From NCBI RefSeq assembly GCF_001642575.1, contig NZ_LXNG01000034.1:1-64000 (forward strand): a stretch of DNA of 64,000 nt, written 5' to 3'. The notes under the pieces were generated by a model that was not told where the DNA came from, searched no databases, and worked only from the letters and a program-made list of their open reading frames with translations. Of the stretch, positions 27,271 through 43,114 are shown piece after piece. Origin of the DNA: Xanthomonas floridensis. Its GTDB lineage: Bacteria; Pseudomonadota; Gammaproteobacteria; Xanthomonadales; Xanthomonadaceae. Positions within the stretch are counted from its first letter, which is position 1; each line of letters starts with the position of its first letter. A program made the position numbers and the translations under genes.

Positions 27271-27573
27271 GTAGGGCGTAAGGATATCGAGGGGGAGGGC
27301 GGTGGTCTGTGTCGATACCCAAATGCAGCACCGGCGCACTGGGTTCCGGATAGGGCACGGATGTTACGGAGGTGCTGAGCACCTGTGCACAGGACGGCGT
27401 GAGCGGAACGTCGGTCCGCAGGGCCGCCACAGATGCAAGCGGGAATGCGTAATAGAATAACATTTGCTCGAGGGTGCTTCGGTCGGCACGACGTAGCATC
27501 TTCGAGTACACGCATCGCCGCTTTACCTGGACGCCGCCGCTTGGCTCACCAGCTTCGGGCTATGCAAGCAATG

Positions 27574-27586
27574 TGATAACGTATCA
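27574..27586. promoter_or_regulatory. Small palindrome upstream of the ABC transporter operon
   Basis: TGATA at 27574-27578 and TATCA at 27582-27586 are inverted arms around ACG in the only AT-rich stretch before the ATPase ATG at 27609. It could be an operator overlapping the promoter. No regulator gene is adjacent, so this is a weak call. Confidence 0.3.
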
Positions 27587-27608
27587 ATTTGTTACCATCG
27601 TTGCCGTC

Positions 27609-28349
27609 ATGTCCCTCAGCGTTCCCACGCCTTGCGCGATTGCCATTTCCGACCTGCATGTGGCCTACCACGGCCGCGCCGTGTTGAAGGGGTTGAGCCT
27701 GCACATCGCGCCCGGCAGCGTGTACGCGCTGCTCGGTGGCAACGGCGCGGGCAAATCCTCCACGCTGTCGACGCTGCTGGGCTTCGTCAAACCCACGTCC
27801 GGCAGCGTGCGGGTCGACGGCATCGACCCGGTCGCCGCCCCCGGCAGGGCACGCGCACGATTGGCATATTTGCCGGAAAACGTTGCGCTCTACGAGCATC
27901 TGAGCGCGCTGGAAAATGCCGACTACCTGCTTGCGCTCGCCGGGCAGCGCTGCAGCCAGGCCGACATCGGCCAGGCCTTCGCAGCCGCAGGGTTGCAGCG
28001 CGAGGCATGGAGCCAGCGCCTTGCCGGCTTTTCCAAGGGGATGCGCCAGAAGGTGGCCATTGCCGTGGCCACGCTGCGCCAGGTGCCGGTGCTGCTGCTG
28101 GATGAACCCACCTCCGGGCTCGACCCGCGCGCCATTGCCGACTTCAACCAGTTGGTCAACGGCGTGCGCGCGCGCGGCGGCGCGGTGCTGATGGTCACCC
28201 ACGATCTGCTGGGAGCCGTGGACGTGGCCGACCGGATCGGATTTCTCGAAGACGGGCGCATCGTCGAAGACATCGGCGCCGGCGACGGCGGCTTCGATGT
28301 GCGCAGCCTGCACGCGCGCTTTGCACAACCGCCCGGGCGCGCTGCATGA
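27609..28349 (+). CDS. ABC transporter ATP-binding protein
   Basis: A 246-residue ATPase with Walker A GGNGAGKSS, signature FSKGMRQK and Walker B VLLLDEPTSGLDPR, followed by the switch histidine in LMVTHDLLGAVD. It resembles the ATPases of ABC-2-type exporters (NosF/CcmA-like group). The two permease genes follow at once and in the same direction, so the three make one transporter. The ATG at 27609 gives the standard N-terminus. Confidence 0.92.
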   Translation: MSLSVPTPCAIAISDLHVAYHGRAVLKGLSLHIAPGSVYALLGGNGAGKSSTLSTLLGFVKPTSGSVRVDGIDPVAAPGRARARLAYLPENVALYEHLSALENADYLLALAGQRCSQADIGQAFAAAGLQREAWSQRLAGFSKGMRQKVAIAVATLRQVPVLLLDEPTSGLDPRAIADFNQLVNGVRARGGAVLMVTHDLLGAVDVADRIGFLEDGRIVEDIGAGDGGFDVRSLHARFAQPPGRAA

Positions 28350-28359
28350 GCGTGCATGC

Positions 28360-29796
28360 ATGAGTGCTGTGTGGCTGGTCGCGCGCGAAGAACTGCGCTT
28401 CATGGCACGCAATCGCTCCGCTGCCATCGGCGTGGTGTTGCTGATGCTGTTGACCCTGGTGGCGGCGTTGACTGCCGCGCATCACCAGCGCGAGGTCACC
28501 GAGTTCCGTGCGCGCCAGCAACAGGCTGCGCAGCAGGCTTTCGATGCGCAGCCGGACCGTCATCCGCATCGGGTGGTGCATTACGGGCATTTCATCTATC
28601 GCCCGTTGCCGGCCCTGGCTGCGTTCGACTCCGGCGTGGATGCCTTCACCGGCAACAGCATGTTTCTGGAAGGCCATCGTCAGAACACCGCCAATTTTGG
28701 CGATGTCCGTCAGAGTTCGCTGCTGGTGCGTTTCGGTCAACTGACGCCGGCCTTCGTGCTGCAGGTGCTGGCACCGCTGATGCTGGTGTTTCTGGGCTAT
28801 GGCGCCGTGGCCCGCGAACAGGAGACCGGCACGCTGCGCGTGTTGCTGCTGCAGGGCGCCACGCGTCGGCAACTGCTCGGCGGCAAATATCTCGCGTTGG
28901 CCGCCGTGGCCGCTGCCTGCCTGTTGCCGGCCCTGGTCGGCCTGATCCCGATCGCGTTGTTGCCGGGCCAGGCAGTGCTGGTGGCGTTGCTGGTGCTGGC
29001 CTATGGCGTGTATCTGCTGGTGTGGTGCGGGCTGGTGCTGGCGGTGTCGATGCTGTGCCGGCGCGGCCGCGATGCGCTGCTGGTGTCGCTGGCGCTGTGG
29101 GTGTGGCTGGCCCTGCTGGTGCCGCGCGTGGCGCCGGATGTGGCCAGTGCCGCGTACCGGCTGCCCACGCGGCTGGAGACCGACGTGGCCATCCAGCGCG
29201 ATCTGCGCACGCTAGGCGACAGCCACAATCCGGACGACCCGCACTTTGCGCAGTTCAAGCAACAGGTGCTGGCGCGTTACCGCGTGCAACGCGTGGAAGA
29301 CCTGCCGGTCAATTACAAGGGCCTGCTGGCGCTGGAAGGCGAGCGGCTCACCGCCAGCCTGTTCGAGCGCTATGCGGCGCGCGATGCACGCATCCAGCAA
29401 CAGCAGAATCTGCTGGTCCGCACGTTTGCGGCGTTGAGCCCGACAGTGGCATTGCGCGAGGTCTCGATGGCCCTGGCCGAAACCGACCTGCGTGCGCACG
29501 AGCGCTTTCTCGCGCAGGCCGAGCACTACCGTTACACGCTGGTGCAACGGCTCAATCAATTGCAGGCCGATGCGGTGAGCATGGCCGACGACACCGCGCA
29601 GGATGCCGGTGCCGACCAGCGCAAGCGCATCTCTGCGGCGCATTGGCAGCGCATCCCGGTGTTTCGCTTTACTCCGGCGTCCAACGCCGAGGTCGTGCGC
29701 GCGGCGGCTGTGCCGCTGGGTCTGATCGCGGCCTGGATGCTGGCCGCCTGGTGCATGTTGCTGGCCGCCGGGCGGCGCGTGGGAGTGGCACGCTGA
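28360..29796 (+). CDS. ABC-2-type permease, first subunit (DUF3526-like)
   Basis: A 478-residue membrane protein has an N-terminal helix (AIGVVLLMLLTLVAALTA), a long periplasmic region, a cluster of helices (FVLQVLAPLMLVFLGYGAVA, LAAVAAACLLPALVGLIPIA, LVALLVLAYGVYLLVWCGLV) and a final C-terminal helix. This layout with a large extracytoplasmic domain between the last two helices resembles DUF3526-type permeases. Its stop overlaps the next permease start (TGATG at 29794-29798). The substrate is unknown. Confidence 0.8.
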   Translation: MSAVWLVAREELRFMARNRSAAIGVVLLMLLTLVAALTAAHHQREVTEFRARQQQAAQQAFDAQPDRHPHRVVHYGHFIYRPLPALAAFDSGVDAFTGNSMFLEGHRQNTANFGDVRQSSLLVRFGQLTPAFVLQVLAPLMLVFLGYGAVAREQETGTLRVLLLQGATRRQLLGGKYLALAAVAAACLLPALVGLIPIALLPGQAVLVALLVLAYGVYLLVWCGLVLAVSMLCRRGRDALLVSLALWVWLALLVPRVAPDVASAAYRLPTRLETDVAIQRDLRTLGDSHNPDDPHFAQFKQQVLARYRVQRVEDLPVNYKGLLALEGERLTASLFERYAARDARIQQQQNLLVRTFAALSPTVALREVSMALAETDLRAHERFLAQAEHYRYTLVQRLNQLQADAVSMADDTAQDAGADQRKRISAAHWQRIPVFRFTPASNAEVVRAAAVPLGLIAAWMLAAWCMLLAAGRRVGVAR

Positions 29797-31073
29797 TGGT
29801 GCTGTGGAAATACGAACTGCTGTTGTTGCTACGCGCACGCGCGGCCGTGGCGGGGTTGCTGCTGCTCACGCTGTTGACGGTGTGCAGCCTGCTTTCAGGG
29901 CAACACGTCATCGATGCGCAACGCGCCAACATCGCGCGCATCGCGCCGCTGCAGCAGGAAGACAGCGCGGCAGTGCAAGCCTATGTCGCGCGCTCCAACG
30001 ATGCCGGCAGCGCGGCGTACTACAGTTTCCACCCGACCTGGGACACGCCATCGCCATTGGCCTTCGCCGCAGTGGGCATGCGCGATGTGGCGCCCTACAT
30101 CTTGCGCATACGCGCGCTGGGCCTGGAGGCGCAAATCTACGATGGCGACAGCTATAACCCCGAGCTGGCGTTGGCCGGACGCTTCGACTACGCCTTTGTG
30201 CTGGTGTTCCTGCTGCCGCTGTTCGTGATCGCGCTGCTGTTCGATCTGCGCTTCGGCGAGCGCGAGGCCGGGCGTGCGCGCATGCTGGCCGCGTTACCGG
30301 GCGCCGGCACCGCATTGCTGGTGCGCCGCGTCGTGGTGCGTGCGGTTGCAGTGCTGGCGTGTCTGGGCGTGCCGTTTGCGCTGGCCGCGACGTTCAATGC
30401 GGTGCCGTTGCTGCAGCAACTGGCGGTGCTGGCGCTGACGTGCCTGTATCTGCTGTTCTGGGTACTGCTGGCAGTGGCGGTGGGCCGTCTCCATTGGCGA
30501 CCTGCCGCGCATGCCACCGCGTTGGCCACCTGTTGGGTGGTGCTGGCGCTAGTGGCGCCGGCCCTGGCACATGTGGCGATCAATCAGGCCGTGCCGGTCA
30601 ATCAGGGTACCGAGATCGCCCGGCTGCAACGCGAGGCGGTGAACCACGCCTGGGATATTCCGCGCCAGGCCACCATGCAGCGGTTCTACGCAAGCAATCC
30701 GCAGTGGGCAGATTCGCCGCCGCTGACCGATGCGTTTCACTACAAATGGTATTTCGCCTTCCATGAAAACGGCGATCAGCAGGTCGCCCTGCAGGTGGCT
30801 GCCTATCGCCAGGGGTTGCTGCGCCGGGAAAGGCTTGCCCGGCGCGTGGCCAGTGTGTTGCCGCCGGTGGCAGTGCAGGCCGCACTCACGCACCTGGCAC
30901 GCACCGACCTGCAGGCGCAGCTGGCCTATCAGGATCGCATTCGCGCCTATCACCGGGCATTGCGTGCGTTCTACTACGAATACCTGTTCCGCGACCGGCC
31001 GTTTACAGGCGACGACTTCCAGCGTGCGCCGCGTTTCGATGCTGCCGCAACGCCGGCGCTGCAGGGCAGCTGA
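29796..31073 (+). CDS. ABC-2-type permease, second subunit (DUF3526-like)
   Basis: A 425-residue membrane protein, homologous in layout to the preceding permease: helix near the N-terminus (AVAGLLLLTLLTVCSLLS), FDYAFVLVFLLPLFVIALLF, and a helix cluster around LAVLALTCLYLLFWVLLAVA, with extracytoplasmic regions rich in charged residues (TLARTD-like ALTHLARTDLQAQ). The pair probably forms a heterodimeric channel with the ATPase at 27609. Start ATG 29796 overlaps the stop of the first permease, implying coupled translation. Confidence 0.8.
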   Translation: MVLWKYELLLLLRARAAVAGLLLLTLLTVCSLLSGQHVIDAQRANIARIAPLQQEDSAAVQAYVARSNDAGSAAYYSFHPTWDTPSPLAFAAVGMRDVAPYILRIRALGLEAQIYDGDSYNPELALAGRFDYAFVLVFLLPLFVIALLFDLRFGEREAGRARMLAALPGAGTALLVRRVVVRAVAVLACLGVPFALAATFNAVPLLQQLAVLALTCLYLLFWVLLAVAVGRLHWRPAAHATALATCWVVLALVAPALAHVAINQAVPVNQGTEIARLQREAVNHAWDIPRQATMQRFYASNPQWADSPPLTDAFHYKWYFAFHENGDQQVALQVAAYRQGLLRRERLARRVASVLPPVAVQAALTHLARTDLQAQLAYQDRIRAYHRALRAFYYEYLFRDRPFTGDDFQRAPRFDAAATPALQGS

Positions 31074-31452: not shown

Positions 31453-32109
31453 TCACCCCGTGCCACGCCGCTTCGATATGCCGCTACGGCTGCGCTTCTT
31501 GCCGGCTGCCGGCGGTGCGGCGGTTTCGTCGGCCAGTACGCCGCCGTGCTGCATCTGCTCCAGCCACGACAACGCATCGACATAGCCGAGGAAGTGCTGC
31601 AGATAGCCGGGCGAGCGCTCGCGCATCAGGGTGATGCAGCGATGCACCAGCACGCTGGAATTGAGTGGCCCGGCATTCTTGGGCGCGTCCTGCAGCGACT
31701 GACGCACCTGGCTGGCGGTGCGCACGGTGGTCCAGGTACGACGAAAATCGTCCAGCGCCGGCAGCTCCGGGAACAGCTGCGTATCGGCGGCCGCGGTCTT
31801 TCTGCTGTCCACCTCCATCAGCGCGGCGTGGCCTGCCAGCTGATCGGTCAGGGCGCCGAGCGGGCTGCGCTGCACTGCGGGCGATGCGATGCCGGCACGC
31901 GTACCGCGCGCAGTTTTCTTGATGGTGGCCGCATACGCATCGACCAGGCCGGCAAGCTTTTCTTCCAGCACCGCACGTACCGGGTCGGCCTGCGTTTCGG
32001 CACGCGTGGCCAGCGTCTGCATCAGATGGAAGCGCACCGGGTCCAGCCGGTCGGCGCCCTGGCTGCGCCAACGCTCCAGGCGCGCGCGTGCGGACGCTGG
32101 CGTGCTCAT
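31453..32109 (-). CDS. DUF2894 family protein, last gene of the motor-like operon
   Basis: A 218-residue soluble protein has an N-terminal helical part (ARARLERWRSQGADRLDPVR and FHLMQTLATRAETQADPVRA) and a conserved C-terminal region (LNSSVLVHRCITLMRERSPG, YLQHFLGYVDALSWLEQM), ending in a basic tail (KKRSRSGISKRRG). It matches the DUF2894 family, whose function is unknown. Its start overlaps the stop of the OmpA-like gene by four bases (ATGA), so it is translated as part of the same unit. A cytosolic partner of the motor is my inference from context. Confidence 0.8.
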   Translation of the reverse strand: MSTPASARARLERWRSQGADRLDPVRFHLMQTLATRAETQADPVRAVLEEKLAGLVDAYAATIKKTARGTRAGIASPAVQRSPLGALTDQLAGHAALMEVDSRKTAAADTQLFPELPALDDFRRTWTTVRTASQVRQSLQDAPKNAGPLNSSVLVHRCITLMRERSPGYLQHFLGYVDALSWLEQMQHGGVLADETAAPPAAGKKRSRSGISKRRGTG

Positions 32110-32771
32110 CGCGTGGCCGCGGCCTGCGCGGGGGCTGTGCGCTGCGCGCCGGACGGGCGTGCGATCGGTGCAATCTCCACCCGGCGGTTCTTGGCCCGGC
32201 GTGCTTCGTCGGCGTTGGAATCCACCGGTTGCTGCGAGCCGAACGCCGCAGCGAACACCGATGCGGCCGGCACGCCTTCAGCGATCAACGCGCGGGTCAC
32301 GGTCAGCGCGCGCTGCGCGGACAGCTCCCAGTTGTCGGCGTAGCGGCGATTGCCGCCCAGCACCGGGCGGTCGTCGGTGAATCCGCTCACCATCAGGATC
32401 TCCTCGCGCGCGGCCAGGTAGTGCGCCAGCGGCGCAGCCAACGACTTCAACACCTCGCGGCCTTCCGGCTGCAGTTCATCGGAGTTGAAGGCGAACAGCA
32501 CATTGCCGCGGATGCCGATGCGGCCATCGACCAGGGTCACGCGGCCGGCCGCCAGCGGCGCGGCCAGCGCCTGCTCCAGCGTCTTGCGGCGCTGCGCCTC
32601 GGCCTGCTGCTGCTTGACCGCCTCGTCCAGGCGGCTGGACAGCTGCAGCTGCACGCCGATCACCCCGACCAGGATGAAGACGAACGCGCCCAGCAGCACC
32701 GACATCAGGTCGCCGAACGCGGCCCAGATCGGGGTGCCCGATTCGCCGTCGATGTCGATCTCGTCGCTCAT
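32106..32771 (-). CDS. MotB/OmpA-like stator subunit of an uncharacterised motor
   Basis: A 221-residue protein with one N-terminal membrane helix (MSVLLGAFVFILVGVIGVQL), a coiled-coil linker (LDEAVKQQQAEAQRRKTLEQ) and a C-terminal OmpA/MotB peptidoglycan-binding domain (ILMVSGFTDDRPV, NWELSAQRALTVTRALIAEG, RRAKNRRVEI). Aspartate D21 stands at the mouth of the helix (PIWAAFGDLMS), matching the ion-carrying Asp of MotB and ZorB. It should anchor to the cell wall and pair with the MotA-like product upstream. Overlaps of four bases with both neighbours show tight coupling. Confidence 0.88.
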   Translation of the reverse strand: MSDEIDIDGESGTPIWAAFGDLMSVLLGAFVFILVGVIGVQLQLSSRLDEAVKQQQAEAQRRKTLEQALAAPLAAGRVTLVDGRIGIRGNVLFAFNSDELQPEGREVLKSLAAPLAHYLAAREEILMVSGFTDDRPVLGGNRRYADNWELSAQRALTVTRALIAEGVPAASVFAAAFGSQQPVDSNADEARRAKNRRVEIAPIARPSGAQRTAPAQAAATR

Positions 32772-35425
32772 GCCGGCTCCGCTGCGCCGGCATCGCTGCG
32801 GCCACGGTCGAGCTGGCGCAGTTCTTCGATGATCTGCTTCTGCGACAGCATGCTGAGGTCGACCACCTCGCGCGCCTGCGCCACGTAATAGGCCAGCTGG
32901 TCATCGCTGCGTGACAGCGACGCATCCAGTGCGGCGGCCACATGTTGCAGGCGTTCGTTGAGCTCGCCGGTGGAGGTGCTGAACAACTGCACCGCCATGC
33001 CGAAGGCTTCGCCCAGGCTGGCCACTTCCACGGCGCTACCGCTGACGTGCGCGGCCACTGCGCCGAGCTTGCCGGTTTCGCTGCCGATCTGTTCGGTGAG
33101 CTGGCTGCCCACCCGCTGCAGCAGGTCCGCCGAGGTGGTGACCAGTGCGTCGACGGCTTGGCGTTGTTCGGTGGAGGCGTGATTGACCGCGTTGAGCAAG
33201 GTGTCCAGCGTGGCCAACAGGCGGCTGCGTTCTTCCAGCATGGCGGTGTCGCGCACCATGCTTTCCGACAGGTTCTGGCGCAGCTCGGCCACTATATCTG
33301 CCGCGGCTTTGGGCGCTTCGGAAGCAATCTGCATCAGCCGCGAGATCTCGGCAATGGTGGCGCTGGTCTGCGCCTGCGCTTGGGTGGACAGTTCGCTGGC
33401 GGTGCTGGCCAGGGTGTCGCAGATGGCTTGCTGTTGTTGAGTGACGCGCTCGCCGGTCTGTTCCCATTGCGTGGCCAGGGTGGCGCTCATCGCGGCAAAG
33501 CGCTCGCTCCACAAGGCAAGACGCTGCGCATCGCGCGCTTCCAGTGCGGCCTGCAGCTCGGTATGCGATTGCTGCAAGGTGCCGACCAGGCCCGCGGCAT
33601 GCGTGTCGAAGCTGGCGGTGGCCGCGGCCAGCGCATCCTGGTGCTGGGTGGCCAATGCGGCACTGGCGTGTTGCTGCTGTGCCAGCGCATCGCTCCAGGC
33701 AGTGGCGGTCTGCCTGCTGGATTGCTCCATGCGCTTGGACACCGCATCCACCAGCGCGTTGGAGCGCGCATCGAAGGTGCTGGCGAACTGCGTCAGTGCG
33801 TTCTGTAAGTCGTGGGTGAGGGTGTGGTTGGCGCGCTGCTGTTCGGCCACCGCGGCGGTCCAGCTGGCGGCCGTGGTGGCGGTGCTGGCCTCAAAGCCGC
33901 TGGTCAACCCGTCCAGCTGCTGTTGCACGGCCTGCTGCACGCTTTGCTGCAAGGTGGAGGTCTGCGCGGCCAGCTGTTCCAGCGTGGCCTGCAGCTGCGT
34001 GCCGAGCGCTTGGGTGGCGCGTTGTTGTTCGGCAAGCACCGCTGCCCAGGTCTCGGCATTGGCGGCGGTGCTGCGCGCAAAGCCGTCATCGAGTGCGCGC
34101 AATTGGTGCTGCACGGCGGCGCCGACGCTGTCCTGCAGGGCGCTGCTGCGTTGCTCGACCTGCGCCAGCGTGGCGTGCATCTGCTCGCTGAGCGCCTGCT
34201 GCGCGCGCTCCTGCGCGGCCAGCGCTGCCTGCCAGTGCTCGGCCGCAGTGCGTGCGCTGTTCTTGAAGCCGGCATCGAGCCCATGCAGTTGCTGCTGCAC
34301 GGCGGTGCTTACGCCGTCCTGCAATGCAGCGGTGTGCCGGGCGATCTGTTCCAGCGTGGTCTGCAGCTGCGTGCTGAGCGCCTGCTGCGCGTGTTCCTGC
34401 GCGGCAAGCGCGGTGGTCCACTGTTGCGCGGCGCTGCCGGCACTGCGATCGAACCCGCTGCTGATGCCGTCCAGTTGCTGCTGCACGGCGTGGGTGAGTT
34501 GTGCGTGCAGCGTGGCGGTGTCGCGTGCGATGCTGGCCATGGTGGCCTCCATCGCCGGCTGCAACGCCGCGCCAACCGCGCGCGCACTGTCTGCAACGCC
34601 GGCCTGCAGCGATTGCTCCATCGAGGCGGCCAGCCGCGCATACGCCGCTTCGGTTCTTGCGTGGAACTCGGCCTGCTGCGTGGCCAGACGTTCGTCGGCG
34701 GCGATGCTCTGCTGCTCGATGCTGCCCATCAAGGCCTGCAGGCGATCGATCAGCGCCGGCATCAATGCGCTTTGCTGCTGTTGCAGCTTGAACACTTCGC
34801 CACGCTGATGCGCTTCCGAATGCGGATGCAATTCGGCGGCGATCTTCATGTCCAGCTGCTGTACCGCCTGCAGGCGCTCGCGCCGGCACAGCGCCGACAA
34901 CAGGCCCAGCATGGCCGAGGTGGCGACGCCGGCGATGGAGGTGCCGAAGGCGAAGGCCAGGCCTTCCACCGGTGCGGCCAGCGAACCGCGAATGGCCTGC
35001 AGGTCGGTGGCGCTCTGCAGCGCAAACCCGGTGCCCTTGAGCGTGGCCATCATGCCGAGCAGGGTGCCGAGCATGCCCAGCAACACCAGCAGGCCGACCA
35101 GATACGGCGTCAGCACCGGGGCCGGTAACGCCACGCGCGCACCCTGGATGCGCAGACGCACCGCATTGCGCAGGCTCGGGTGCAGCTGCTCCAGCCATGC
35201 GTCCAGCGCCGACGGTGCAGTAGTGAGCCCGGTCACTGCGGTGTCCAGCGTGGCGCTGGCCTGGCGGTAGCGATACAGCTCCAGCGCACCGGCGAGATAA
35301 CACGCGCCGATCACCGCGGCGACGCAGGCGCCCAGCGGATTGTTGCCCAGATAGCCGAACCCGACCCAGCAAACCGCCAACAGGCCGACGAGAAACACAC
35401 ACACGTGTACAAGAGTTTTGAACAT
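32768..35425 (-). CDS. MotA/ExbB-like membrane protein with very long DUF802 tail
   Basis: An 885-residue protein. Residues 1-200 carry four membrane helices (LVGLLAVCWVGFGYLG, ACVAAVIGACYLAGALELY, VGLLVLLGMLGTLLGMMATL, FAFGTSIAGVATSAMLGLL), the last two matching the MotA/ExbB proton-channel core. Residues from about 220 onward are an almost continuous Ala/Gln-rich coiled coil of the DUF802 family, including four tandem 62-residue repeats (residues 315-562). Usual MotA and ExbB proteins are 230-300 residues, so the cytosolic tail is exceptional and recalls ZorA. ATG 35425 begins just before the first helix; ten bases separate it from the DUF3348 stop. Confidence 0.88.
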   Translation of the reverse strand: MFKTLVHVCVFLVGLLAVCWVGFGYLGNNPLGACVAAVIGACYLAGALELYRYRQASATLDTAVTGLTTAPSALDAWLEQLHPSLRNAVRLRIQGARVALPAPVLTPYLVGLLVLLGMLGTLLGMMATLKGTGFALQSATDLQAIRGSLAAPVEGLAFAFGTSIAGVATSAMLGLLSALCRRERLQAVQQLDMKIAAELHPHSEAHQRGEVFKLQQQQSALMPALIDRLQALMGSIEQQSIAADERLATQQAEFHARTEAAYARLAASMEQSLQAGVADSARAVGAALQPAMEATMASIARDTATLHAQLTHAVQQQLDGISSGFDRSAGSAAQQWTTALAAQEHAQQALSTQLQTTLEQIARHTAALQDGVSTAVQQQLHGLDAGFKNSARTAAEHWQAALAAQERAQQALSEQMHATLAQVEQRSSALQDSVGAAVQHQLRALDDGFARSTAANAETWAAVLAEQQRATQALGTQLQATLEQLAAQTSTLQQSVQQAVQQQLDGLTSGFEASTATTAASWTAAVAEQQRANHTLTHDLQNALTQFASTFDARSNALVDAVSKRMEQSSRQTATAWSDALAQQQHASAALATQHQDALAAATASFDTHAAGLVGTLQQSHTELQAALEARDAQRLALWSERFAAMSATLATQWEQTGERVTQQQQAICDTLASTASELSTQAQAQTSATIAEISRLMQIASEAPKAAADIVAELRQNLSESMVRDTAMLEERSRLLATLDTLLNAVNHASTEQRQAVDALVTTSADLLQRVGSQLTEQIGSETGKLGAVAAHVSGSAVEVASLGEAFGMAVQLFSTSTGELNERLQHVAAALDASLSRSDDQLAYYVAQAREVVDLSMLSQKQIIEELRQLDRGRSDAGAAEPA
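33740..34483 (-). repeat. Four tandem 186-bp repeats inside the DUF802 gene
   Basis: Each unit codes 62 residues starting QQQLDG, QQQLHG, QHQLRA and QQQLDG, with a central GF, a tryptophan at unit position 22 and a heptad-like Ala/Gln series (QQALSTQLQTTLEQ). Units run 34483-34298, 34297-34112, 34111-33926 and 33925-33740. The tandem organisation suggests that tail length can vary by unequal recombination. Confidence 0.85.
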
Positions 35426-35435
35426 GACGTCCCAG

Positions 35436-36173
35436 TTAGCGGGTACGAAGCGCTGCAAGCAGGCCTTCGATCGGGTGAAAACGAACATCCAGTTCGGCGA
35501 GCAACACGCTCTGCATGTCTTTGCGAAATACATCCAGCCAACCATCGGACACCGCGCGCGGCGCGATCTCCTGATCGGTTGGCGCGCCGTGCGCGTATGC
35601 GGCCTCGCGCAGGCGGTCGAAATGTGTCCCCAGCAGGCCGGGCACGGTGTTCAACAGGCTTTGCTCGCGTGGGCTCAGGGTCAGCTCCATCACCGCATCC
35701 ACTTCGGCCAGCCGTGCCATGTCGCTGGATACCAGCGCCAGCAGGTCGCGCAGCCGCCCGCGCAGATCACCGGTGGCAGTGCGCATGGCACGCTGCATCG
35801 CCAGGTAATGCTGCCGGAACGGCGCGTAGTCGGGCACCGGCAGCGCTGCACCCGTGTCGGTGACGTCACCTGCCTGGCTGCGCAGCCGCGCAACCAGCGC
35901 ATCCAGATCGGCCACGCTGCTGGTCGCCAGACCCGCGCGCACGCGCGCGCAGGCGTCGGCATCGAGCGGACGCGGTTCGGGCAGGTCGTCGATGTCGGGC
36001 AACTTGCCATCCAGCGCCTTGGACACCGCCACCGCGTGGGTCCAGTCGATCCACTGGCTCAGCCGGTCGGCCAGCGCATGGTTGGACTGGGCGACGCGGA
36101 CATCGCTGAGGCGTGCGAGCAGGCGAATGAACGCCGGGCCCGAGAGGGGCGCCCGTGGAGCAGACTTCGCCAT
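35436..36173 (-). CDS. DUF3348 family protein, first gene of the motor-like operon
   Basis: A 245-residue soluble, largely helical protein: FIRLLARLSDVRVAQSNHAL, DRLSQWIDWTHAVAVSKALD, then FRQHYLAMQRAMRTATGDLR and RLAEVDAVMELTLSPREQSLL, ending WLDVFRKDMQSVLLAELDVRF. It matches DUF3348, found in beta- and gammaproteobacteria beside DUF802 genes. No enzyme motif is visible. ATG 36173 gives the family-like start; an upstream TTG would add four residues. It is the first gene of the four-gene unit and may be the cytosolic part that touches the long coiled-coil tail. Confidence 0.8.
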   Translation of the reverse strand: MAKSAPRAPLSGPAFIRLLARLSDVRVAQSNHALADRLSQWIDWTHAVAVSKALDGKLPDIDDLPEPRPLDADACARVRAGLATSSVADLDALVARLRSQAGDVTDTGAALPVPDYAPFRQHYLAMQRAMRTATGDLRGRLRDLLALVSSDMARLAEVDAVMELTLSPREQSLLNTVPGLLGTHFDRLREAAYAHGAPTDQEIAPRAVSDGWLDVFRKDMQSVLLAELDVRFHPIEGLLAALRTR

Positions 36174-36606
36174 TGTTCCGGTCAAAGACCGCCCATTTTA
36201 CACGGGAATGACAGCGGGTCTGCCGGTGCGGCCGGGTAGGCGCTACGGTGGCTGGTGACGTTCACGGTGGGGCGGGACTTGCGCGGCCTGGGGGCATCCG
36301 GGAGCCGGCGCGGAGGGCGCGCCGGAACATCGGCAGCGAGGTGGCCGCTGCGCGGTCGCGCAGGCGCGGCAAGCCGAAGCGCCCACGGCGTCTGCGCTTG
36401 CGCCGATTCGTGAGCAGGGTTCATGACCCCATGCCGCCCGCGTGGCATCGCGCGGCGCCGGGGTTTGCTACAAACAGGAGAGCAGCCGGCACAGGTCATG
36501 CCAGGGCGCCGGTGCGTACCGGGCGATTGCCGGGGCCGGGTCGGGCGTCATGGCCGGTATGCCGCGACACGCGCCCGTCCGCCCGCACTCTTCGAGGAGC
36601 ATCCGC
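36174..36606. other. Intergenic stretch between divergent genes
   Basis: This 433-bp stretch separates the divergent DUF3348 and molybdoenzyme genes and must hold both promoters. It holds no 2Fe-2S or FAD subunit gene, nor a remnant of one that I can see, although such genes usually precede PaoC-type subunits. Confidence 0.55.
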
Positions 36607-38820
36607 ATGAAGTTCGACACCCCCGCAGGCGCCAACCCCAGCGACCGACTCACGGTGCTTGGCCAGCCGGTCGACCGCGTGGACGGGCCGCTCAAGGTGA
36701 CCGGGCAAGCCCGCTACGCCTACGAATGGCACGACCAGCCCGGGCAGATGGCGTATGGCTATATCGTCGGCGCGGCGATCGGCAAGGGCCGCATCACCGA
36801 GCTGGACACCGCCGCTGCACGGGCGGCGGCCGGGGTGATCGCCGTGCTCACCTATCAAAACGTGCCTACGTTGGGCACCGGCGAATTTTACGTGCAGCGG
36901 TTTCTGGCCGCGCCGCAGGTGGACCACTACCACCAGGCGGTGGCCGTGGTGGTGGCGGAGACCTTCGAGCAGGCCCGTGCCGGTGCGGCGCTGGTGCGGG
37001 TGCGTTACGCGCGCGAGCGCGGGCAATACGACCTGGCCGCCCAGCAGGCCAGCGCCCCGGTGGCGCCGCAGGCGCCGTTCGGCGGGCCGCCCCAGACCGC
37101 GCAGGGCGATTTCGCTGCGGCCTATGCCGCCGCGCCGTTCACCGTGGATGCCACCTACCGCACCCCCGACCAGGCGCACGCGATGCTGGAGCCGCACGCC
37201 ACCATTGCGCGCTGGGAGGGCGAGCAACTGATCTGCCACACCGCCATCCAGCAGATGAACTGGGGCACGCGCGATCTGGGCAAGGCGCTCGGCGTGCCGA
37301 AGGAGCGCATCCGGTTGCTGTCGCCGTTCATTGGCGGCGGCTTCGGCGGCAAGGGCACCGCGCAGGCGGACCTGGTGCTGGCCGCGCTGGCCGCCCGCAT
37401 CACCGCGCGGCCGGTCAAGCTGGCCCTGCAGCGCCCGTTGATGTTCAACAGCACCATCCACCGGCCCGCCACCATCCAGCGCCTGCGCCTGGGCGCCACG
37501 GCCGACGGGCGGCTGACCGCGATCGGCCATGAGAGCTGGTCGGGCAATCTGCGCGGCGGTCGCAGCGAGCCGACCACCTTGTCCACCCGGGCGCTGTATG
37601 CCGGTGCCAACCGCATGACGGCGGTACGGCTGGCAGTGCTGGATCTGGCCGAAGGCAACGCCATGCGCGCGCCCGGCGAGGCGCCGGGAATGATGGCGCT
37701 GGAAGTGGCGATGGACGAACTGGCCGAGCGCGTCGGCATGGACCCGGTGCAGCTGCGCATCGTCAACGACACCCAGGTGGACCCGGAGCAGCCGCAGCGG
37801 CCGTTCTCCACGCGCCCATTCGTGGCCTGCCTGCGCAGCGGCGCGCAACGCTTCGGCTGGTCGCAACGCCATCCCACCCCTGCCAGCGTGCGCGATGGCC
37901 GCTGGCTGATCGGCATGGGCATGGCCAGCGCCATTCGCGGTGCGCCGATCTCCAAGGCCGGCGCGCGTGTGCGGCTGGATCGCAGCGGCACGCTGACGAT
38001 CGAAACCGACATGACCGATATCGGCACCGGCAGTTACACCATCGTGGCGCAGACCGCGGCCGAACTGCTCGGTGTGCCGCTGCAGCAGGTGGTAGTGCGG
38101 CTGGGCGACTCCAGCTTTCCGGAAACGCCCGGCTCGGGCGGGCAGCAGGGCGCTGCGTCGGTCACCGCCGGCGTCTATGCCGCCTGCATGCAGCTGCGCG
38201 AGACGGTGGCGCAGCGCCTGGGCATCGCCGCCGGCCAGGCCCGCTTTGCCGATGGCATGGTGCATGTGGGCAGCCGCGCCATCCCACTGGCGCAGGCGGC
38301 CGAGCACGGCGAGCTGGTGGCCGAGGACGCCATGGAGTACGGCACGCTCAAGCAGCGCTACGCACAGCAGACCTTCGGCGCGCACTTTGCGCAGGTGGCG
38401 GTGGATGCCGACACCGGCGAAATCCGCGTGCGCCGGTTGCTGGCGGTTTGCGCGGCCGGACGCATCCTCAACCCCAAGACCGCGCGCAGCCAGGTGATCG
38501 GCGGCATGGTGATGGGCGTGGGTGCGGCGTTGATGGAAGAGATGGTGGTGGATACGCGGCTGGGTCTGTTCGTCAATCACGATCTGGCCGGGTACGAAGT
38601 GCCGGTGCATGCGGATATCCCGCATCTGGAAGCGCATTTCATCGACGAGGTGGACCCCACCATGTCGCCGCTGAAGGCCAAGGGTGTGGGTGAGTTGGGA
38701 TTGACCGGCGTGGCGCCGGCGCTGGCCAATGCGGTCTACAACGCCACCGGCATCCGCGTGCGCGACTATCCGATCACCCTGGACAAGCTGTTGGCGCAAC
38801 TACCGCGCAGGGCGGGATAG
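36607..38820 (+). CDS. Xanthine dehydrogenase-family molybdopterin-binding subunit (PaoC/YagR-like), orphan
   Basis: A 737-residue large subunit of the aldehyde oxidase type. The cofactor loop GGGFGGK is present, as is the C-terminal motif GVGELGLTGVAPA, whose glutamate is the catalytic base, and GSGGQQGAASVTAGVY for pterin binding. Length equals that of E. coli PaoC (about 730), so the subunit is complete. PaoC works with a 2Fe-2S subunit (PaoA) and an FAD subunit (PaoB) in an operon, but neither lies upstream or downstream here. They may be encoded elsewhere or be lost. ATG 36607 follows GAGGAGCATCCGC. Confidence 0.88.
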   Translation: MKFDTPAGANPSDRLTVLGQPVDRVDGPLKVTGQARYAYEWHDQPGQMAYGYIVGAAIGKGRITELDTAAARAAAGVIAVLTYQNVPTLGTGEFYVQRFLAAPQVDHYHQAVAVVVAETFEQARAGAALVRVRYARERGQYDLAAQQASAPVAPQAPFGGPPQTAQGDFAAAYAAAPFTVDATYRTPDQAHAMLEPHATIARWEGEQLICHTAIQQMNWGTRDLGKALGVPKERIRLLSPFIGGGFGGKGTAQADLVLAALAARITARPVKLALQRPLMFNSTIHRPATIQRLRLGATADGRLTAIGHESWSGNLRGGRSEPTTLSTRALYAGANRMTAVRLAVLDLAEGNAMRAPGEAPGMMALEVAMDELAERVGMDPVQLRIVNDTQVDPEQPQRPFSTRPFVACLRSGAQRFGWSQRHPTPASVRDGRWLIGMGMASAIRGAPISKAGARVRLDRSGTLTIETDMTDIGTGSYTIVAQTAAELLGVPLQQVVVRLGDSSFPETPGSGGQQGAASVTAGVYAACMQLRETVAQRLGIAAGQARFADGMVHVGSRAIPLAQAAEHGELVAEDAMEYGTLKQRYAQQTFGAHFAQVAVDADTGEIRVRRLLAVCAAGRILNPKTARSQVIGGMVMGVGAALMEEMVVDTRLGLFVNHDLAGYEVPVHADIPHLEAHFIDEVDPTMSPLKAKGVGELGLTGVAPALANAVYNATGIRVRDYPITLDKLLAQLPRRAG

Positions 38821-41704: not shown

Positions 41705-42868
41705 TTACGGCGTCAGCACGACCTTGCGGCAGTCGTCCTGTTTCTTGTCGAAAAGTTCGTAACCGCGCGCAGCATCGGCCAGCGACATGCGGTGCGAAAT
41801 GATGGCACTGGGCTTGAGCTCCCCGTTGCCGATCCGCTCCAGCAGATACGGCATATGTTTTTGCACATGGGTCTGACCCATCTTGAAGCTCAATCCCTTG
41901 TCGAATGCGTCACCGAACATGAAGGCGTGGATGAAGCCTGCATAGACCCCAGGCACGCTGACCACGCCACAGCGCCGGGTTGCTGCAATGCACTGGCGGA
42001 TGGCGACGCCGCTACTGCCTTCCAGTTTCAGGTTGGTCAGCGCAGTTTCGAGCGTGCTGCCTTCGGCTTCGAACCCGACCGCCTCGATGCTGACATCCAC
42101 GCCGCGGCCATCGGTCTGCGAGACGATTACATCGGCTGGGTCGTCGATCTCGTCGAAGTTGATGGGGATCACGCCGTATGCCTTGGACGCGAAATCCAGC
42201 CGATACGCGTGGCGGTCGACCATGAAGATGCGCTCTGCGCCCAGCATCCTGCAGCATGCCGCGGCCATCAGGCCAACCGGGCCTGCGCCGAAGATGGCCA
42301 CCGTGGACCCCTGCTTGACGCCGCCATCGATCACCGCCTGGTATCCCGTTGGCAGGATGTCGGACAGGAATAGCACCTGCTCGTCATGCAGTGCGTCGGG
42401 CACCACCAGGGGCCCGACATTGGCCTTGGGAACGCGCACGTACTCGGCCTGGCCGCCAGAGAGGCCGCCGTACAAGTGGCTAAAACCGAACAGGGCAGCC
42501 GGCGGGCGAATATCCTTGTGATTCAACGCGGCGCCCTTGCCGGTATTGGTGGTTTCGCAGGCAGAGAACTCCTGCAGCATGCAATGAAAGCACTGCCCGC
42601 AGGCCACAACGAATGGAATCACCACGCGGTCGCCCCGCTTCACCGCGGTCACATCCGGGCCAACGTCTTCGACGATGCCCATGAATTCATGGCCGAGAAT
42701 GTCGCCTTGCCGTAGGTCCGGAATCTTGCCGCGATACAGATGCAGGTCCGAGCCGCAGATAGCCGTGGCGGTTACGCGCAGGATGAGGTCGTCGCGTTCG
42801 ACCAGCACCGGATCGGGAACGGTTTCGACCCGCACGTCGCGGGAGCCGTGATAGTTGAGGGCACGCAT
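41705..42868 (-). CDS. Zinc-dependent MDR alcohol/formaldehyde dehydrogenase-like enzyme
   Basis: A 387-residue medium-chain dehydrogenase: catalytic zinc site with C38 ([12 protein letters not shown]) and [10 protein letters not shown], four-cysteine structural zinc loop ([15 protein letters not shown]), and the Rossmann motif [20 protein letters not shown]. Size and pattern resemble the glutathione-independent formaldehyde dehydrogenase group. ATG 42868 is used; an upstream start would add four residues. The neighbours are stress-type genes, so detoxification of aldehydes is likely. Confidence 0.88.
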
Positions 42869-43114
42869 GGCGAACTCCAAAAAGCCGTTGCAGTCACGGC
42901 GACGGCGGTCAGTGTTGGCATCAGAGTGTTAAGCCGATCAATGCGCAGCGTGCGTGCGATGTGCATGTGGCACTACGCCGACGCCGCGTTGATGCCCAGG
43001 TCACGCCTGGATAACTCGTGCGCTCTCACCCTGGCCTGGCGCGCTGTTGTTATCGGCAGCGCATCCACATCCACTTCATCTCAACGCTTCAGGGCGACTA
43101 ATCAGGAGGCAACG

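Follow-up and report, generated by a model that had tools for sequence, protein, structure and literature searches.

The window, which is the whole 64,000-nucleotide stretch analysed here, comes from a Xanthomonas floridensis genome of 5.25 Mb and carries a minus-strand operon of four genes in the order DUF3348-zorA-zorB-DUF2894, separated by intergenic gaps of +10, -4, and -4; the placement and gaps given in a preliminary description of this DNA were confirmed. The first gene (35436..36173) encodes a DUF3348 protein of 245 aa (Pfam PF11828, 1.2e-83; PADLOC PDLC00658, 3e-87), and the second (32768..35425) encodes ZorA type III, a protein of 885 aa with a four-helix MotA/ExbB-like motor domain followed by a long coiled tail. 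The third (32106..32771) encodes ZorB type III, which has 221 aa, one transmembrane helix, and a predicted OmpA/MotB peptidoglycan-binding domain (Pfam OmpA, 2.1e-20), and the fourth (31453..32109) encodes a basic DUF2894 protein of 218 aa with a pI of 10.3 (Pfam PF11445, 5.9e-61; PADLOC PDLC00652, 9.4e-77). An alternative upstream ATG for ZorA is located at 35545, within the preceding DUF3348 gene. The start at 35425 is supported because the PADLOC ZorA3 profiles align with the 885-aa form from residue 1 (three of four models) or residue 3 (the fourth). On the plus strand, opposite the ZorA tail, lies a 455-residue open frame (33441-34808) that is probably no gene but a side effect of the GC-rich repeats.

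Pfam assigned DUF3348, DUF802 (five stretches), OmpA, and DUF2894 to the four products, and all four were matched by the type III models of PADLOC. For ZorA, the E-value was 0 in three of the four ZorA3 models and 1.4e-290 in the fourth, versus 9.5e-13 for ZorA1 and 1.1e-6 for ZorA2; for ZorB, it was 2.9e-113 with ZorB3, versus 2.6e-20 with the best ZorB1 model and 9.6e-8 with ZorB2. The type I and type II models matched ZorA and ZorB only, far more weakly than those of type III, and zorAB is flanked by the DUF3348 and DUF2894 genes, as type III requires (Pfam and PADLOC). The closest named ZorA matches were those of Xanthomonas sp. Leaf148 (97%) and X. pisi (95%). None of the four operon products matched the PADLOC models for ZorC, ZorD, or ZorE, and no ZorE match was found in this genome; ten flanking ORFs, scanned with Pfam, were transporters, oxidoreductases, or gave no match. 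By these profile assignments the locus is a complete Zorya type III anti-phage operon, an already-known system. The names of the two partners are swapped between sources: in the papers the DUF3348 protein is ZorF and the DUF2894 protein is ZorG, and in PADLOC-DB 2.0.0 they are ZorG3 and ZorF3, respectively.

According to the available text of Payne et al. 2021 (PMC8565338), type III was defined from 6,401 gene pairs with DUF3348 and DUF2894 genes on their flanks; at one point that text prints 'zorBC' where the zorAB pair seems to be meant. The same source reports that the type III system of Stenotrophomonas nitritireducens, plasmid-borne and inducible in E. coli BL21-AI, reduced plaque numbers for at least one phage and guarded liquid cultures of this strain against PVP-SE1 at an MOI below 0.1. 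T1, lambda-vir, T4, T7, and PVP-SE1 were the phages used with that operon. The preliminary description had regarded the operon as uncharacterised, as a motor family distinct from Zorya, and as having an unknown output. None of these views held, since type III was named and its protection against phage demonstrated in E. coli in 2021, and since type III models match all four proteins; phage defence, which had been listed among the possible outputs, is supported. All four proteins, encoded in one operon and recognised by dedicated profiles, are common to the window and to Zorya type III as defined by Payne et al., and no difference in gene content was found; the phage-tested member is that of S. 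nitritireducens, and the one described here belongs to Xanthomonas, with a genus-wide operon.

Hydrophobic segments of ZorA were located near residues 5-23, 30-48, 109-127, and 158-180, followed by a tail of about 670 residues; an exceptional coiled tail of 650 residues behind a MotA/ExbB core had been described earlier. The tail is probably cytoplasmic, a topology that follows from its position after the last membrane helix. A profile of the ZorA motor domain, built from 22 sequences, was searched against the PDB, and 8vvn_C (1.9e-7) was the only match at E<=0.01. Judging from its chain length and a legend in the available text of PMC11890865, 8vvn appears to be the Shewanella Zorya type I complex. 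Residues T121, T162, and S163 of ZorA aligned with T, T, and S of 8vvn_C and were invariant in all 169 ZorA sequences compared. ZorB has a single hydrophobic segment (22-40) with D21 (codon 32709..32711, minus strand) immediately N-terminal of it, and in a search with the first 70 residues D21 fell opposite the ion-site D24 of 8vvn_B (0.00069). Together with D133, R154, N195, R196, and R197, it was invariant in 165/165 ZorB sequences, and D21 is likely the ion site, as its alignment suggests. By analogy with OmpA and MotB, D133, R154, and N195-R197 would bind peptidoglycan, with which the predicted OmpA domain is compatible. The earlier assignments of an ion-driven MotAB/Zor-like motor, and of a MotB-like helix carrying D21 joined to an OmpA domain, agree with the 8vvn chain matches, the ZorA3 and ZorB3 profiles, and the Pfam result.

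The MotA- and MotB-like cores could also be taken for an accessory flagellar stator or motility motor, and when whole ZorB was compared with the PDB, MotB, PomB, and OmpA domains ranked higher (3khn, 2.8e-15), with 8vvn_B last of 45. This ranking favours MotB structures because the OmpA domain dominates whole ZorB. A stator is nevertheless highly improbable: the sole PDB match of the A subunit at E<=0.01 is a Zorya ZorA and not MotA, NCBIfam gave no model over its cut-off and a ZorA model alone below it, and the long tail and two extra partners are found in every complete locus. An energiser of an outer-membrane process, resembling ExbBD or TolQR, would share the MotA/ExbB/TolQ superfamily core to which the PADLOC model names refer, but the B subunit bears an OmpA domain, the operon encodes no TonB- or TolA-like protein, and the ZorA tail probably lies in the cytoplasm by the topology given above, so that such a function is very hard to credit.

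Among Zorya systems, type I (ZorABCD; Shewanella ZorAB, 8vvn) has homologous ZorA and ZorB proteins, with the aligned aspartate and the long tail, but the window operon is without ZorC and ZorD and has instead two small proteins with no enzyme signature. Type II (ZorABE) has the ZorAB core in common, at the weaker profile matches given above, but the ZorE nickase is missing from the window operon. Flagellar MotAB shares the superfamily, the OmpA-type wall anchor, and the aspartate ion site, and the window ZorA differs from it by a long repeat-built tail, two dedicated partners, and its ZorA profile ranking.

The tail of ZorA contains 4 prolines in 670 residues and is predicted to be a long amphipathic helix, with a hydrophobic period of 3.66 residues and a power of 43.5 versus a maximum of 11.6 in 500 shuffles, a periodicity compatible with a pentameric cytoplasmic rod. 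Its sequence repeats each 62 residues, and five DUF802 repeats were placed at 33584..34465 (minus strand), with a spacing of about 62 and one of 55 residues. The profile used to count repeats across ZorA proteins was built on those of the window and so is biased to close kin; on this scale 165 ZorA proteins, whose total length ranged from 625 to 1,229 residues, had between 0 and 5 repeats. Among 34 ZorA proteins of the genus, 32 had 883-893 residues and five repeats, and two had 823 residues and four repeats. The latter two (Xanthomonas loci L086 and L087) are 62 residues shorter than the 885-residue form, exactly one tail repeat. At a period of 3.66, a 62-residue unit would correspond to 17 turns, and its gain or loss would keep the helix in register.

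Of 89 loci, comprising the window and 88 that were fetched, 86 had the four genes in identical order and the remaining three were cut by contig ends, and 78 of 80 named loci anchored on ZorA had all four in order, the other two again being cut by contig ends; with the order so kept, the arrangement is non-random. The DUF802 gene was not often found without its OmpA partner, since ZorB was present in 79 of the 80 ZorA-anchored loci, with one contig-cut exception. Among 398 genomes of the phylum, 19 were over the DUF3348 cut-off, and in the same 19 a DUF2894 gene lay on that contig and strand; further matches were marginal (one DUF3348 below the cut-off; three DUF2894 with internal stops, of which one was just over the cut-off). 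Among 159 genomes of the family, DUF3348 was detected in 49 and DUF2894 in 48 of those, the exception being a genome (G048) whose 3,070-base contig ends within ZorA; in genome G109, only a 42-residue end of DUF3348 was on its contig. The proposal of two dedicated soluble partners, DUF3348 first and DUF2894 last, was therefore upheld by tight co-occurrence and by the order kept in complete loci. The control genome of Corynebacterium glutamicum, a species not among the Zorya III hosts observed, also had a PF11445 (DUF2894) match over the cut-off of that model, with no DUF3348 match.

The DUF3348 protein was predicted to be all-helical and soluble (AlphaFold2 pLDDT 82, pTM 0.79); it had no sequence match in the PDB, and a second look at PDB matches gave no convincing structural relative. 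The DUF2894 protein has a basic C-terminus (the median pI was 9.9 over 86 proteins), was poorly predicted in structure, and had 13 weak PDB matches, all with E-values of 0.11 or more. No enzyme signature was detected in either protein with Pfam, which returned only the DUF families, or with NCBIfam, which returned nothing. If these partners end the pathway, they would act by binding and not as an obvious nuclease.

Xanthomonas is named among the genera with frequent type III in a 2025 paper (PMC11890865), whose available text calls the distribution of the three Zorya types typical of anti-phage systems. DUF3348 was single-copy in 35 of 35 Xanthomonas genomes (one genome per species), so the patchiness expected of an accessory defence system was absent from the genus and present in the family, where the operon was found in 49/159 genomes and 18/54 genera; in the order, ZorB3 was found in 21/121. 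Cupriavidus metallidurans CH34 and Paraburkholderia xenovorans LB400 are among the other carriers of the operon. Two families served as defence controls in the same 35 genomes and are not a survey of defence systems: BREX PglZ was over its cut-off in one genome (two at E<=0.001), and Zorya II ZorE gave two weak partial matches.

Location was compared in 34 fetched loci of the genus, with the window's own omitted, by counting from the flank table. Of the two flanking genes counted, the alcohol dehydrogenase gene upstream (41705-42880) was within reach in 28/34 loci and the permease gene downstream (28297-29796) likewise in 28/34; at least one of the two was present in 33 and both in 23, and the remaining locus (L083) had only a partial match, to another flank ORF. 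The Xanthomonas location was seen in none of 54 fetched loci from outside the genus, in which there were eight single flank matches of 27-43% identity. In genus g7, X. albilineans, and X. bonasiae, the operon location differs from the main Xanthomonas locus and adjoins what we take to be a transketolase-like gene. An accessory immune system would not usually be present in all 35 genomes and mostly at one locus, and no report of genus-wide fixation in Xanthomonas was found in the open-licence literature searched. The system itself being already known, this fixation is a modest surprise.

Median pairwise dN/dS within the genus was 0.099 for ZorB, 0.112 for the ZorA motor, 0.186 for the ZorA tail, 0.231 for DUF3348, and 0.245 for DUF2894, compared with 0.114 and 0.099 for the neighbouring permeases, 0.038 for the dehydrogenase, and 0.021 for rpoB. 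Within Xanthomonas, distances of the Zor genes were correlated with those of rpoB (Spearman 0.45 to 0.65), and for each gene 0/500 permutations were as high. These data bear on the idea that the Xanthomonas motor has been domesticated, its main job being constitutive (envelope sensing or maintenance) and phage protection a side effect or one output among others. Single-copy presence in every genome, against the near-absence of PglZ and ZorE, at least one of two flank genes kept in 33/34 loci, and purifying selection on the motor like that on the permeases are in its favour. The dN/dS of the partners is, however, about twice that of the motor, the operon is patchy outside Xanthomonas, a relative protects E. 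coli, and a defence system may reach fixation without a new job; domestication is accordingly judged unlikely.

Type III ZorA was absent from the phage records and viral contigs searched, and DUF3348 was absent from the phage records. This is of no help in weighing domestication and cannot separate the Zorya types, because the Zorya II ZorE control also had no match in phage records. On plasmids, type III ZorA occurred in 27 of 72,556 records, all of 366 kb to 3.5 Mb, of which 20 were non-mobilizable, seven mobilizable, and none conjugative; one Zorya II ZorE protein, used as a control, was found on 13 plasmids (eight mobilizable, three conjugative, two non-mobilizable). In the Zor tree, Xanthomonas (34 genomes) and genus g7 (six genomes) were kept whole. 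Genera g11 and g17 were scattered there but whole in the rpoB tree, as happens with defence genes and against expectation under domestication; g16 and g29 were whole in neither. The two trees had 26 splits in common (random labels gave at most 2), and 22 of 42 strong rpoB splits conflicted with strong Zor splits. Xylella is described in the available text of PMC9148166 as having ZorA and ZorD homologues and no complete Zorya. The most economical explanation is that the operon moved between genera and then became fixed in Xanthomonas.

Taken as a whole, the locus very probably encodes a Zorya type III anti-phage motor with two partners, carried as a fixed chromosomal operon in Xanthomonas. Membership, gene order, conserved ion-site residues, tail periodicity, and co-occurrence were computed here; the evidence that a relative protects E. 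coli from phage, the ZorA5B2 structures of types I and II, and the finding that both of these types need their tail, their binding to the wall, and the ion-site aspartate are the work of others (PMC8565338 and PMC11890865, as far as their available text extends). By analogy with the solved complexes, the type III motor would be a 5:2 assembly of ZorA and ZorB in the inner membrane. On disturbance of the wall by infection, ZorB would take hold of peptidoglycan through its OmpA domain, ions would pass D21 of ZorB and the polar ring of ZorA (T121, T162, S163), and ZorA would rotate together with a five-stranded cytoplasmic rod about 100 nm long if it is one unbroken helix. The rod may then recruit or activate the helical-bundle DUF3348 protein and the basic DUF2894 protein, which would replace ZorC/ZorD or ZorE and block the phage. 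The lack of an enzyme signature in the partners, the whole-ZorB ranking in the PDB, and the presence in all 35 genomes of the genus were counted against this interpretation, as was the design of the published phage test, in which the genes were induced from a plasmid in a host not their own (PMC8565338, available text).

With its identity settled, the locus does not extend the range of known systems. Zorya III is the type without an obvious effector enzyme, carried by every Xanthomonas species genome examined, and the locus is thus a natural test of whether a defence motor can join the core cell; it also bears on what two small helical proteins do instead of a nuclease. As a doubtful extension, the Xanthomonas system might serve a housekeeping role as a fixed motor that keeps watch on the cell wall. 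It would then be either immune machinery that has joined the core envelope apparatus or an old envelope motor that gave rise to an immune system by recruitment, its rod tuned by gain and loss of the register-keeping units.

Downstream of the operon, an ABC ATPase and two DUF3526 ABC-2 permeases (27474-31073) are common neighbours in the genus. The permease gene at 28297-29796 is overlapped, in a different frame, by an ORF at 28356-31073 whose initial portion resembles a spurious, GC-rich reading frame. On the other side, the operon adjoins a molybdopterin-binding xanthine/aldehyde dehydrogenase gene (36442-38820), which was present in 5 of the 34 fetched genus loci, some of which end too early, and which is so either a local insertion or a gene lost elsewhere.
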